Assembly (NCBI GenBank): GCA_028710415.1
Contig: JAQTUE010000011.1
Coordinates: 62,001 to 126,000 of the forward strand
Direction: 5' to 3'
DNA length: 64,000 bases
From: Paludibacter sp.
Lineage (GTDB): Bacteria > Bacteroidota > Bacteroidia > Bacteroidales > Paludibacteraceae
Of this stretch, positions 4,896 through 25,501 are shown in pieces; position 1 is the first letter of the stretch; every line of letters starts with the position of its first letter. The notes under the pieces were generated by a model, which saw only the letters and a list, made by a program, of their open reading frames with translations, ran no database searches and was not told the origin of the DNA. The translations under genes were made by a program, and so were the position numbers.

Positions 4896-5085
4896 GAAAA
4901 AAAACCGCATTGCCGTTAGTTGAGAAAACTCCTATAATTAGGATTTGAGGTGTTGGTTTCTTTTGTAATCTGCCGTCCATAAAGGATACCCTGAGGCGCA
5001 GCCCGCCATTAGAAACCAGACATGTCTCGTTTAATTTTTTTAAACGTTGAGTTTTCCAATCTCAGGACAATGCGGTTAGTTTTTG
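4896..5085 (-). ncRNA. Candidate 6S-like RNA (rod-shaped ~190 nt)
   Basis: Minus-strand TATATTTG at 5092-5099; terminal stem AACCGCATTG/CAATGCGGTT followed by T8; inner GAAAACTC/GAGTTTTC and GGTTTCT/AGAAACC; bubble arms each carry a hairpin. Confidence 0.5.
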
Positions 5086-6680: not shown

Positions 6681-6763
6681 GGGCAGTTACCAAAGTGGCC
6701 AACTGGGGCTGACTGTAACTCAGCTGTCTTTCGACTTCGGAGGTTCGAATCCTTCACTGCCCA
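6681..6763 (+). tRNA. tRNA-Tyr (GTA)
   Basis: Acceptor GGGCAGT/ACTGCCC, anticodon loop CTGTAAC, long variable arm, T-arm GGTTCGAATCC. Confidence 0.93.
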
Positions 6764-6856: not shown

Positions 6857-6932
6857 GCGAAAGTAGCTCAGTTGATAGAGCATTAGCCTTCCAAGCTGAG
6901 GGTCGCGGGTTTGAGTCCCGTCTTTCGCTCCA
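6857..6932 (+). tRNA. tRNA-Gly (TCC), CCA encoded
   Basis: Acceptor GCGAAAG/CTTTCGC, anticodon loop CTTCCAA, T-arm CGGGTTTGAGTCCCG, followed by T-CCA. Confidence 0.95.
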
Positions 6933-19743: not shown

Positions 19744-21264
19744 ATGAAAAAATTCTATGTTTACTTATTAATGGTCGTTTTGCTAAACTTACTTCCTCTA
19801 CAACATATTCTGGCAGGATGTGGTCCTGCCTGGATGAAAAAGACAGTTCCTGCAGCAGGTTCATTCCTTTTACCGGACAATAAAATATCTTTTACCTTTG
19901 TAGCCGGCTCCGGAACACAGCAGGTAGTTGGAGGCAATATCCACCTGTACAAAGCTTCGAATGACAGTTTGATTGAAACAATTGCAATTGCCAGCGTTTA
20001 TCCTGTTGGAAGTTATGGAAATGTTGACGGTTCATTTGAATTTGTGATCAGCAAAAAACTGGAAAGCGATACCCAATATTATGTACTGATTGATTCCGGT
20101 TCATTTGCATGCAGGGAATACGTTTATGACTTCTTGAAGGACAGTACCGGCAAATCATTTGTATGGAATTTTACAACAGCAGCATCACCCGTAACCATTA
20201 ATTACAGCGGAGCCGTGAATTTCTGCCAGGGAGAAACAGCAACGTTGAGCGTGCTTAAATGTTATTCGTACCTGTGGTCGACCGGTGAAACAACTCAAAC
20301 TATTACTGTTCACCATTCCGGAAAGTATTCCGTCAGTGTTGTTTATATGAATGGTACTTCAGCAACTAACTCAATAGATATTAGCGGCAAACAACCCGTT
20401 TCCGTTCCTATTTGCTATGTATCGGTTGATTCACTTTCACAAAATAATATTATCAGCTGGGACAAAACGAACCTCTCCATTGTTGATAGTTTTATTGTTT
20501 ACCGTGAGACCACAACCGATAACTACCAACAGGTGGGAGCAGTGCCTTACAAAGGTGCAGCAGGACTATTCACCGATACGGTACGCGCGAAATACTTTCC
20601 TAATACCGGAAACCCGAATGCAGGAACGTACCGGTATAAACTTCAGGTCAGGGATACCTGTGGGAATTACAGCGCATTGAGTGGATACCACAATACCATT
20701 TACATGAATAATAACAATGGGACTTTCTCCTGGATAAAATTGTACAGTATTGAAGGAACAGATAACCCTGTAAACGCCTATGTGTTAATGCGTGATGATA
20801 ACAGTGATGGTACCTGGCATGCCATTAACAGCGTTACCGGCACACAATATACTGTAACCGACCCTGCATACCTGAACTTTAAAAATACAGCCCGATGGAG
20901 GGTGGAAACACTTTGGGGTATCAGTTGTGGAGAACCAATGAGAGTAAAAGGTAGCACGACTGTAAGCAGAGTTTCACGTTCTAACACGCGTAGTGCTTTA
21001 AATTCAGGCATTTCAACAGTAACAGCATCAGAACTGTTTAAACTATACCCTAATCCAAGCCAGGGTAAGTTTATGCTCGAAATGACTGGTGAACAACCTG
21101 CGAATGTAAAAATATACAGTATCCTGGGAGAGCTTGTTTACGAACAAAAAACAACAGATCGAATTCAACAGATTGATTTATCGGATTATCCCGCCAATAT
21201 TTATTTTGTAGAAGTGCAATTCAAAGATAAAGCATTTAAACAAAAACTGGTATTGACAGAATAG
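19744..21264 (+). CDS. T9SS type A sorting domain-containing secreted protein
   Basis: Signal peptide; C-term LFKLYPNPSQGKFMLEM...VKIYSILGELVYEQ...IYFVEVQFKDKAFKQKLVLTE. Confidence 0.9.
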   Translation: MKKFYVYLLMVVLLNLLPLQHILAGCGPAWMKKTVPAAGSFLLPDNKISFTFVAGSGTQQVVGGNIHLYKASNDSLIETIAIASVYPVGSYGNVDGSFEFVISKKLESDTQYYVLIDSGSFACREYVYDFLKDSTGKSFVWNFTTAASPVTINYSGAVNFCQGETATLSVLKCYSYLWSTGETTQTITVHHSGKYSVSVVYMNGTSATNSIDISGKQPVSVPICYVSVDSLSQNNIISWDKTNLSIVDSFIVYRETTTDNYQQVGAVPYKGAAGLFTDTVRAKYFPNTGNPNAGTYRYKLQVRDTCGNYSALSGYHNTIYMNNNNGTFSWIKLYSIEGTDNPVNAYVLMRDDNSDGTWHAINSVTGTQYTVTDPAYLNFKNTARWRVETLWGISCGEPMRVKGSTTVSRVSRSNTRSALNSGISTVTASELFKLYPNPSQGKFMLEMTGEQPANVKIYSILGELVYEQKTTDRIQQIDLSDYPANIYFVEVQFKDKAFKQKLVLTE

Positions 21265-21572
21265 TTCAGGATAATTTGGTGAAATATAGTGATCTTTGTA
21301 CTGTACAGTCATATTATTTGAACCTATAAAAGTATTTCCTGGAAAACAGGATTAAAATGCGATCATGGAATGTGATTTAGTTCATTTTATACCTGTCATA
21401 TGGAGCACTGTTTTTAGGAATTAATGGTGACCAACTTCAATCCCGTTGAATAGTTATCAACAATCTCGTTTCATGTGTAATGATAATCAGGCCATTACCC
21501 TGTTCATAACTCTGTTGAAATGTTGTTTGCAAATACAAGGTAAAATACTTGCAAAACGCATATTCAATGCAG

Positions 21573-21580
21573 TATATTTG
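21573..21580 (+). promoter_or_regulatory. Bacteroidetes-type promoter -7 box TATATTTG with TTG 21 nt upstream
   Basis: TTG at 21549-21551, TATATTTG at 21573-21580. Confidence 0.6.
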
Positions 21581-21586
21581 CATCAT

Positions 21587-23017
21587 GAGTTTCGACTCAA
21601 AACATGAAATGATATGTTGAAACGCTCTTTGAAATACTGAAACATCAAAAAAAGTCAATAGTTAAATGCCGAACCCAACTACAGGGGTGCAGGTTTGTTT
21701 TATGTAAAGAACGAACTGACTGTTCAGACAAGTTATCTCCGTTATTGTTTACGCAAGTTTGCAATGAGATGCATAACAAAGAGAATAGTTTTACGGTCTC
21801 TGGCAAAAATAGACTTCCCGCTGAGTCAGACTCACTAAATATAATTATGGTGCGTTTGAATAAAACGTAACCCTGTCTCTTGCAGACAGGAAAGCCGGGT
21901 AGTCGGGATGGGAATCTGTAAAAAGTAATTCGTTACTTCTATTCATTTCCGGCCACAAAGAATAATCAGCAATGTTTTGAACTTGTGACTAACAGTTCCA
22001 GGCGAGCAGTACAAAAAAATTAAAAGTCGCGGCAGTTCGGTATTTATTTATAAATGAGTTTATAATTGTACGAATTTTATTTTTTGGTAAAAATACCAAC
22101 AGAGTAAAACAGTCAAGAGTAAAAAAACTGTGTAAGTATAAACCTGATAGCAATATCAGGATTGTACTATAGCGGTGAAATTAAAAAAATCAGCAAATCT
22201 GATAGCTAATAATTTGAACCTGAAACAGGAAGAACCGAAATCCACGTAATACGGGATCAAGTTTGACAAGCGTGAAAAGGGAAAAATTGCCGGTAAACAA
22301 TTGCGAATGGTAAACATTCTCATTTGTGATTACGTAAAAAGCAACTAAGATTTCGACGGTATTCAAGGTAGTTCTATCCGAATGACAAATCTGCCAAGAT
22401 GTGTCAATCCCAGGACTCGAAACTATGAAAGTAGCCGTAACCCGTGAACACCAGAATGATTATATACAAATTTCATCTAAAAATAGTTTCATTGCAAAAC
22501 AATGAAACTAACTATACAGAATTTCAATTTCTATTGACCGGTGATTTGAGTTCTTTGAAAATAGTGATTTCAGGTAAATCCGTAAAAGGATGATAAATTG
22601 AAACACATACTTTGCACGAACAAGTTTGAATCTTACATGCTAAAACATTTGAGATTAAGCCCAGAGAGAATCCGGAAATTGTAAACAAGTAGTTTTATAA
22701 AAAACTGCATACAATCAGCCGGATTAAGCAGAGTAAAAACGAATCAAAGACAGAGATGGCTGCAACAGGCTATCCGCGAAAAAGGAGAAAAAGGACAAAT
22801 TGGTAAAACAGTCTGTAAAATTAATCTGAAGCGGAAAGATACGGCAGCAGTAAGCAAGGTAAAACCCGGCATACTAAAACGGATCCAAATCAAACTCATG
22901 GTGTTTCATCAGTATTCAAAGATAGTCACATTAAATTTTATGTTCAGAGAGGGTGTTGTAAAAGACACCCTCTTACTGTTTAAAATAGGTTAGACTCATC
23001 ATCTGACCTTTTTTTAT
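21587..23017 (+). ncRNA. Candidate very large structured non-coding RNA
   Basis: No plus-strand ORF of 60 aa or more between 21265 and 23260; own promoter; many short hairpins with UUCG/GNRA-like loops; strong terminator at the 3' end. Confidence 0.5.
22987..23017 (+). terminator. Intrinsic terminator
   Basis: AGGTTAGA-CTCATCA-TCTGACCT followed by TTTTTT. Confidence 0.85.
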
Positions 23018-23260
23018 TTCAACAAAGCAGGTTTAATTGAAAAAAAGGAAAATATTTATCATTCAGTTTTAAATGATCACTTTAAGTCTATATATTTTCA
23101 AATAAACAGGACTTAATATCACTAATTAAACTCGATATAGAATCCAGGAATATGATTGTTTAGGTCTGTATTTATAATAGGCTGTAAATGTTTAAGTAAA
23201 AATTAATATATTTGTGGTTAAATTAGAAAGAATTGTAAATACAACTGATTAGCATATTTA

Positions 23261-25501
23261 ATGAAAAAATTAACTCTCCTGGCATTTGTTCTTTTATTAA
23301 CCGTACACTCCCTTACAGCCCAAGGTACATCCGAAGACTACAAACGTGCTTTTTCACTTCAGGCAAAATTGAAAGATAAAGTCTATTACTCCAATGTTGT
23401 TCCAACCTGGATAGATCATACAAACAGTTTCTGGTACGTGCGAAATACACCTCAGGGTAAAACATACCTGTTGACAGATGCAAAAAAGAAGTGGCGAACC
23501 GTGCTTTTCGATCATATGAAACTGGCTGAATCACTTTCGAAAGCAACAAAAACCAATATTGATATAGAGCAACTTTCATTACAATCCTTACAGGTTTCAA
23601 CGAATCTGGATACCCTTCGATTTATAGCCAATGGTTCAAGATGGACTTATATTAAAAATACTGATACGTTGAAAAATGATGGAATCCCGGTTTCTGCAAA
23701 ACCTGAATACTGGGGAACAGTAGATACAGAACGAACAGGAGAACCGGTTATTTCACCCGATAAAAAGCTGGTGGCATTTGTAAAGGATAACAACCTATAC
23801 ATCAAAGACAGTTTGACAGGAACCATAAAATCTCTCAGCACCAATGGTACCCGGGACGATTATTATTCAGCTTATCTTTATTGGTCGCCCGACTCTAAAA
23901 AGATAGCAGTAATGTGCATTCACGCAGCTGATACCCGCCAGTTGTATCTGATTGAATCCTCGCCATCTGACCAGTTGCAACCAAGATTGCATACCCGCAA
24001 TTACGTTAAACCAGGTGATGTATTGCCACAACGAACTCCGGTGATTTTTGATATTGAAACAGGGGATATTAAAACCGCCTCAACCGATTTATTCAAACAA
24101 CAGATGGATTTAAAAGCTTTTGAATGGTTGCCGGACAGCAAATCGGTGATATTTGAATACAATGAACGAGGCCATAAAGTATACAGGGTATTGGAAATGT
24201 CGGTTCAAACAGGCGTTGTAAAGACACTCATTGAAGAAACTTCAAATACTTTTGTAAATTACAATCGTTATTTCCGCCAAAACATCAACAATACAAACGA
24301 AATTATCTGGATGAGCGAGCGCGATAACTGGAATCATTTGTACCTGTACAACCACCTGACGGGAAAAGTAAAAAATCAAATCACCAAAGGCGAATGGTAT
24401 GTACGCGATATTGTTAATGTGGACGAAAAGAAACGAGAAATTATTTTCTCCGCTAACGGCATGGTACACAACGAAGATCCTTATCTGGTGCGTTACTACC
24501 GCATCCGTTTTGATGGCTCCGGGCTTACCTGCCTGACTCCTGAAGAAGGTATGCATCAAGCCTGGTTTTCGGAAGATAAAAAGTATTTGGTAGATGTATA
24601 TTCTCTGGTCAACAAAGCCCCGGTAGCCGTTTTACGTTCTGCCTTGGATGGCAAAATTGTTATGGAACTTGAAAAAGCGGATATTTCAAAATTGGTACAA
24701 TCGGGGTGGAGTGCTCCACTACCTTTTGTAGCAAAAGGTCGTGATGGCAAGACCGATATCTGGGGTATTATCCAGCGTCCTACAAACTTTGACCCAACAA
24801 AAAAGTATCCTGTGATTGAATATATTTATGCAGGTCCGGGAAACCAATATGTACCAAAAATATTTATTCCATTTAACCGTAATATATCAGCAATTGCCGA
24901 GTTGGGCTTTATAGTCATTCAAGTGGATGGCATGGGAACTTCGTTTCGTTCCAAGTCATTCGAGGATATTTGTTATAAAAACCTGAAAGATGCAGGATTT
25001 TTAGACCGCATAGCCTGGACAAAGGTAGCTGCTGCCACCTATCCGTATATGGACATCGGTCGTGTAGGTATTGCCGGTAGTTCAGCTGGTGGGCAGGAAT
25101 CCATGGGGGCGGTACTATTTCACCCTGAACACTATAAAGCTGCCTATTCCGCCTGTGGGTGCCACGATAACCGTATGGATAAAATGTGGTGGAATGAGCA
25201 GTGGATGGGTTATCCGGTTGATAAGTCGTACGAAGAAAGTTCCAATGTGGTAAACGCCCATTTACTTACCCGGCCTTTGATGTTGGTGGTTGGCGAATTG
25301 GATGACAATGTAGATCCATCGAGCACTTACCAGGTTTGCAACGCACTGATAAAAGCAGGCAAAGACTTTGAACTTGTAGTTTTACCAGGTTCCAACCATA
25401 CTATGGGAGGTGATTATGGCGAACATAAACGTTTCGATTTCTTTGTGAAGAACCTGATGGGTATTTCACCACCAAACTGGGAGTCGGTTGTTGTAAAGTA
25501 A
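23261..25501 (+). CDS. S9 family prolyl oligopeptidase / DPP-IV-like peptidase
   Basis: DPPIV N-terminal region; catalytic GIAGSSAGGQESMGA, DDNVDPSSTYQ, PGSNHTMGG. Confidence 0.92.
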   Translation: MKKLTLLAFVLLLTVHSLTAQGTSEDYKRAFSLQAKLKDKVYYSNVVPTWIDHTNSFWYVRNTPQGKTYLLTDAKKKWRTVLFDHMKLAESLSKATKTNIDIEQLSLQSLQVSTNLDTLRFIANGSRWTYIKNTDTLKNDGIPVSAKPEYWGTVDTERTGEPVISPDKKLVAFVKDNNLYIKDSLTGTIKSLSTNGTRDDYYSAYLYWSPDSKKIAVMCIHAADTRQLYLIESSPSDQLQPRLHTRNYVKPGDVLPQRTPVIFDIETGDIKTASTDLFKQQMDLKAFEWLPDSKSVIFEYNERGHKVYRVLEMSVQTGVVKTLIEETSNTFVNYNRYFRQNINNTNEIIWMSERDNWNHLYLYNHLTGKVKNQITKGEWYVRDIVNVDEKKREIIFSANGMVHNEDPYLVRYYRIRFDGSGLTCLTPEEGMHQAWFSEDKKYLVDVYSLVNKAPVAVLRSALDGKIVMELEKADISKLVQSGWSAPLPFVAKGRDGKTDIWGIIQRPTNFDPTKKYPVIEYIYAGPGNQYVPKIFIPFNRNISAIAELGFIVIQVDGMGTSFRSKSFEDICYKNLKDAGFLDRIAWTKVAAATYPYMDIGRVGIAGSSAGGQESMGAVLFHPEHYKAAYSACGCHDNRMDKMWWNEQWMGYPVDKSYEESSNVVNAHLLTRPLMLVVGELDDNVDPSSTYQVCNALIKAGKDFELVVLPGSNHTMGGDYGEHKRFDFFVKNLMGISPPNWESVVVK

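Follow-up and report, generated by a model that had tools for sequence, protein, structure and literature searches.

Outside ribosomes, very few bacterial RNAs as large as ~1.4 kb are known, and these form unusual assemblies. The closest described examples are GOLLD and ROOL, very large and ornate RNAs of unknown function that stand alone in bacterial genomes and contain no ORF (PMC12286853); they measure ~600-900 nt, belong to phages or prophages and often lie near tRNA islands. Another example is OLE, a large RNA that is encoded on the chromosome and conserved in a restricted group of bacteria, Gram-positive extremophiles, and that likely acts in trans. A further point of comparison is the rRNA operon, in which a boxA near the 5' end pairs with the 3' end and a large untranslated RNA lies between the two (PMC10250234).

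The RNA described here lies in a 64,000-nt stretch of Paludibacter DNA, analysed over its full length (the window). The first-pass annotation of this DNA had proposed that a large, structured non-coding RNA is made here from a dedicated promoter and ends at a dedicated terminator, and comparison with relatives supports that proposal while adding features that had been missed, namely an upstream box cluster, a boxA and a closing helix between the 5' and 3' ends. By comparison, the gene has its own promoter, box cluster, 3' terminator hairpin, closing helix and many internal helices, encodes no protein and is inherited as a single copy within one genus. Judged from sequence comparison, this is almost certainly a real and previously unrecognised large structured RNA, and the best explanation of the locus as a whole, to which we give a probability of roughly 0.75, is a stand-alone gene for an ornate ~1.4-kb RNA that would be transcribed under antitermination and act in trans. 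The features are as follows (window coordinates).

4897-5077, minus strand: Bacteroidales-1 (6S) RNA, RF01693 (cmscan)
6681-6763 and 6857-6929, plus strand: two tRNAs (cmscan)
19744-21264: T9SS-type gene, 5' border of an ORF-free gap
21454-21527, plus strand: conserved upstream box cluster, aligned in 19 homologs including the divergent L081
21454-21462: box TTATCAACA, the first of the cluster
21501-21509: box TGTTCATAA, its inverted partner at near-fixed spacing, followed by TGTTGAAATGTTGTTT
21549-21580, plus strand: Bacteroidetes-type promoter, TTG (21549-21551) and TATATTTG (21573-21580)
21586-22985 (3' end approximate), plus strand: large structured non-coding RNA, ~1.40 kb, with ends placed according to the promoter and 3' hairpin
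21586-21599, plus strand: 5'-terminal UGAGU-UUCG-ACUCA hairpin
21602-21647, plus strand: 5' strand of the closing (leader-trailer type) helix (RNAalifold)
21623-21648, plus strand: boxA-like element CGCTCTTTGAAATACTGAAACATCAA
21676-21827, plus strand: best-supported long arm
22006-22032, plus strand: near-invariant A-rich segment GCAGTACAAAAAAATTAAAAGTCGCGG
22899-22943, plus strand: 3' strand of the closing helix, ATCAGTATTCAAAGA ... ATTTTATGT (RNAalifold)
22947-22982, plus strand: conserved 3' terminator hairpin GAGAGGGTGTT/GACACCCTCTT (22947-22974, GC-rich) with TTACTGTTT
22987-23017, plus strand: back-up intrinsic terminator AGGTTAGA/TCTGACCT with a T-run (pattern scan)
23261-25501, plus strand, as the RNA: DPP-IV-like gene, 3' border of the gap

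A cmscan search against Rfam 15, run over window positions 1-64000 and at a relaxed threshold over 21265-23260, assigns no family to the 1.4-kb RNA, including group I and II introns, rRNA, RNase P, tmRNA, SRP and 6S RNA. The first reading had recognised none of OLE, GOLLD, ROOL or HEARO, and the covariance models of these and of raiA likewise give no match at gathering score or at the relaxed threshold; the RNA is thus a member of none of these families and is of the same broad kind, being long, ORF-free and conserved in structure with covariation. Unlike GOLLD and ROOL, it is chromosomal, lacks viral and covariance-model matches and lies ~15 kb from the nearest tRNAs of the window; unlike OLE, it has no Rfam match and no conserved neighbour gene. 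The Bacteroidales-1 RNA is also an independent non-coding RNA gene of Bacteroidales in the same window, but is unrelated in sequence, 180 nt long and of 6S function. Among open-licence papers, neither this RNA nor the shorter one treated below was found reported, and an earlier description elsewhere is possible. If the interpretation is correct, few structured bacterial RNAs that stand alone would exceed its ~1.4 kb, apart from rRNA.

When 60 related genomes were searched at the nucleotide level, matches appeared within the genus, of which nine were nearly full length (71-80% identity, window ~21449-22985), and homologs are present in at least 22 of the 48 genomes of the genus (GTDB Paludibacter, broad sense), with a single copy in the window's own genome. 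Model R2, which covers the upstream region together with the 5' end and was built from Paludibacter homologs and L081, matches 20 of the 48 at E<=1e-33 and one atypical genome at 2e-12, and RNA fragments occur in two further genomes (G019 and G020), in one of which the 5' part falls in an assembly gap. More than 20 species, with differing genes around the locus, conserve the promoter, the RNA body and the 3' hairpin as a set, the RNA ranging from 0.9 to 1.9 kb in length. A model of the RNA body (R1; the long arm and the next hairpin, 21676-21870) found zero matches in 394 genomes of the order outside the genus. A very divergent version occurs in one MAG of the Bacteroidales (L081); it keeps the boxes upstream, the promoter, the boxA, the closing helix and the terminator but has a different interior. 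No convincing match was obtained for about half of the genus's genomes, the only closed one (G015) among them, and the RNA is therefore either dispensable or diverged beyond recognition.

As first reported, no ORF reaching 60 aa starts on the plus strand in the gap between the border genes (21265-23260), the longest being 53 aa. A long ORF-free gap with strand-asymmetric base composition could also be the trace of a decayed protein gene, and a frameshifted ancestral protein was the first objection raised to the RNA interpretation. However, the non-coding state is common to the homologs: each of the 12 near-full-length sequences has 13-45 stop codons in every frame and no open frame in any of them, 109 of the 113 gaps in their alignment (mostly-gap columns removed) have lengths that are not multiples of three, and codon periodicity is absent, the variable columns numbering 305, 325 and 298 at the three positions. 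The protein remnant was rejected on these stops, frame-breaking indels and the missing periodicity; compensatory changes in the helices also speak against a pseudogene, the probability of which is negligible.

The structural evidence begins with fold stability. Relative to dinucleotide shuffles, the minimum free energy of the window RNA has a z-score of -7.7, and all 12 homologs tested fold more stably than their shuffles (-4.8 to -11.1). For the window's reverse strand the value is -4.9, so the strand is set by the promoter and terminator and not by folding alone. In a test modelled on R-scape, with a null that preserves the phylogeny, 6 of 405 consensus pairs covary significantly, and none does when partners are slid by 1-3 positions; pair-level power is low because only 12 near-full-length sequences were used, and most helices are backed in these sequences by consistent pairing only. 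Stems devoid of compensatory changes had been another anticipated objection, and the covariation and double-change pairs answer it. The clearest case is the long arm with its next hairpin, in which 94.8% of cells are paired across 10 sequences, with double changes in 14 of 60 pairs. With 17 structure-fitted sequences, an alignment that leans towards structure and gives a less clean count than the 10, the values are 92% and 30 of 60, none of 500 shuffles scores as high for the arm, and slid partners pair at 36-49% compared with 92%.

The hairpins listed in the first-pass annotation are all present in the sequence and most are conserved among the 12 full-length homologs. The 5'-terminal UUCG hairpin is paired in 98% of cells (L081 keeps the stem with a different loop), CCTGTCT in 96%, TTGGTA in 96%, CCTGATA in 92% with three double-change pairs, AAGTAA-UUCG in 89% and the 11-bp perfect stem in 81% with one double-change pair. 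Others were overstated, and two or three are not conserved: TTATAAA (85%, no double change), ATCAG (72%) and ATCC, which is paired in 85% of cells and keeps from one to four of its four pairs, are all weak or lack conservation. The A-rich segment at 22006-22032 is retained even in the shortest homolog (L057, 882 nt) and is a candidate tertiary-contact or protein site.

The likeness to rRNA operons lies at the two ends of the RNA. The element CGCTCTTTGAAATACTGAAACATCAA, which we take to have the place and sequence type of boxA in rRNA operons, is near-identical to the rRNA leader sequence CGATCTTTGAGAATACATGAACAACAAA of a congener, and none of 2000 shuffles aligns locally as well to that 16S leader; the comparison draws its rRNA leaders from a single genome (G015), the only one with an assembled 16S gene, and the window's own assembly has no 16S match. 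The boxA element pairs with ATCAGTATTCAAAGA near the 3' end of the RNA, and the closing helix contains a compensatory change, GAATTACTG/CAGTAATC in L057-L059 as opposed to GAAATACTG/CAGTATTC elsewhere. Unlike in the rRNA operon, the 1.4-kb body between the two strands is not rRNA and has no SSU or LSU match. A 19-base boxA-core pattern also matched ~30 unrelated genomes and eight viral contigs; profile search showed these to be chance matches, and no rRNA turned up at 14 loci checked.

At the 3' end, conservation stops at the AGAGGGTGT/ACACCCTCT hairpin and TTACTGTTT (22947-22982). This hairpin, already listed in the first reading, is 97% paired with three double-change pairs in the 12 full-length homologs, and its 11 bp are 100% paired, again with three double-change pairs, in a set of 10. 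The terminator at 22987-23017, which had been taken as the end of the RNA, does exist, but no more than 4 of 12 homologs form it fully, and it is best regarded as a back-up. Since conservation ends at 22982 and the distal terminator is so limited, the main product is probably ~1.40 kb.

Neighbouring genes and their orientation mostly differ between species, and partial synteny is confined to close relatives (L057-L059 and L049/L060); in L057-L059, the RNA lies behind a shared gene cluster that resembles the rpsD-rpoA region, as identified by gene size and order only. This pattern is consistent with a stand-alone gene passed on vertically while the genomes around it rearrange. It also argues against the RNA being an extended 5' leader or a cis-regulatory element of the DPP-IV gene: although the two share a strand in the window and the RNA comes first, the downstream genes of the homologs vary and often have the opposite orientation, and the unit is closed by its conserved terminator hairpin. 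The cis-leader reading was rejected on this neighbour comparison and is very improbable. The varying position, together with one copy (L003) that adjoins transposase-like ORFs, could instead suggest the RNA of a mobile element, such as a group I or II intron, a retron, a transposon or a phage. However, there is a single copy in the window's genome, Rfam gives no intron match, the loci of L057-L059 and of L049/L060 are partly syntenic, and phage, plasmid and viral collections contain no match, on which account a phage or plasmid RNA was rejected; a mobile origin is very unlikely. Across the homolog loci, neither a protein partner nor a conserved neighbour points to a function.

Upstream of the RNA, the predicted promoter, TTG followed 21 nt later by TATATTTG, is invariant in 19 of 19 aligned homologs (TTG with TATATTTGCA), and its -7 box is of the TAnnTTTG type known from Bacteroidetes promoters (PMC7366714). 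The cluster preceding it contains an inverted pair of TTATNAACA-type boxes, and of 12 genomes searched, 9 show this paired pattern at the RNA locus. These boxes form a candidate regulator site that is DnaA-box-like, and DnaA may be the regulator. The inverted boxes could also belong to a chromosomal replication origin at which the RNA is incidental; a dnaG-like gene adjoins several copies of the shorter order-wide RNA (see below), and in L186 a cluster of this kind stands before a gene resembling dnaB. Against this, three contigs (G279:C22, G069:C28 and G000:C35) show no GC-skew switch at the locus (the skew of G249:C23 is flat there and uninformative), dnaA promoters are without the boxes, and conservation runs 1.4 kb past them with RNA-type covariation. 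A replication origin was rejected on GC skew and dnaA promoters; the locus is probably not an origin, and we consider the chance that it is one to be slight. As a separate observation, the G000 assembly contains two full dnaA genes (C58 and C100) and has 6.3% contamination, and some of its contigs may belong to another organism.

Returning to the stand-alone RNA gene, a mechanism can be proposed. Because the RNA is untranslated and long, an rRNA-type boxA (NusB/NusE) antitermination complex would transcribe it and block Rho. The 3' end would then pair with the boxA strand, as in the rRNA leader-trailer helix, closing the RNA and making trimming possible. The mature RNA would act in trans, as a ribonucleoprotein scaffold or an RNA-only assembly, and not through regulation of its neighbours. 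We consider rRNA-like antitermination somewhat more likely than not, and size, structure and independence from neighbours make a trans-acting structural role comparably likely.

A wider relationship emerged when R2 was run over 395 Bacteroidales genomes. It returned many matches (best 7e-9) at the start of another ORF-free unit of 290-625 nt with CATCAAGTGAGCGATAAAAGG at the 5' end and AATAACAGTARCTTGRC...GCTACGG at the 3' end, followed by a terminator (loci include L160, L161, L165, L168, L169, L171, L173, L176 and L187). This shorter RNA has no match in Rfam 15, and its alignment supports a structure of 61 pairs, 31 of them with compensatory types. A model of its 3' domain (R3) matches 95 of the 395 order genomes, down to 4e-24, and lies 180-450 nt downstream of R2 on the same strand for 20 of 39 R2 hits in genomes outside the R3 build. 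In the 48 Paludibacter genomes R3 finds only three weak places, and none at the Paludibacter RNA loci, where the AATAACAGTARCTTGRC...GCTACGG domain is absent.

The two RNAs are almost mutually exclusive, and they share upstream boxes and a promoter region that match over ~120 nt (E down to 7e-9), while profile search detects no sequence similarity between their bodies. Common descent is therefore plausible but unproven. A shared regulator site and promoter type without common descent would account for the dissimilar bodies, and this is a serious possibility at somewhat below even odds; the extent of the ~120-nt match and the near-exclusion of the two RNAs weigh against it. That both are one gene, which grew larger in the lineage of Paludibacter, is somewhat favoured by the resemblance of the promoter regions, and there is about an even chance that the full proposal holds, i.e., that the RNA is a lineage-enlarged form (0.9-1.9 kb) of a Bacteroidales-wide RNA gene with rRNA-like antitermination and a dedicated upstream regulator. 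The size range (0.9-1.9 kb here, 0.3-0.6 kb for the shorter RNA) would help to separate a functional core from expansions. Together, the findings would add a large RNA with a testable expression mechanism borrowed from rRNA and a wider order-level RNA, both absent from Rfam.

Several minor observations concern the wider set of loci. The sequence TCTTTGAAATACTGAWACA occurs in similar short intergenic sequences of Prevotella contigs (L098, L101, L102 and L108), which by profile search are not the same RNA. The shorter RNA adjoins a convergent dnaG-like gene in several families (L161, L165, L168, L171 and L187), and L186 has a similar box cluster with no evident RNA before a dnaB-like gene, the gene identities having been assigned by eye. 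Tandem or nearby duplicates of the shorter RNA occur in G204:C1 (208865 and 209349), G119:C28, G317:C1 and G085:C55. Lastly, two R2 hits (L149, G070:C258; L162, G279:C22) have a third, boxA-like type of 5' end, GGAGTTCATTGACATTTTG, L149 also carrying GAGAGATAAAG, and both are possible intermediate forms between the two RNAs.
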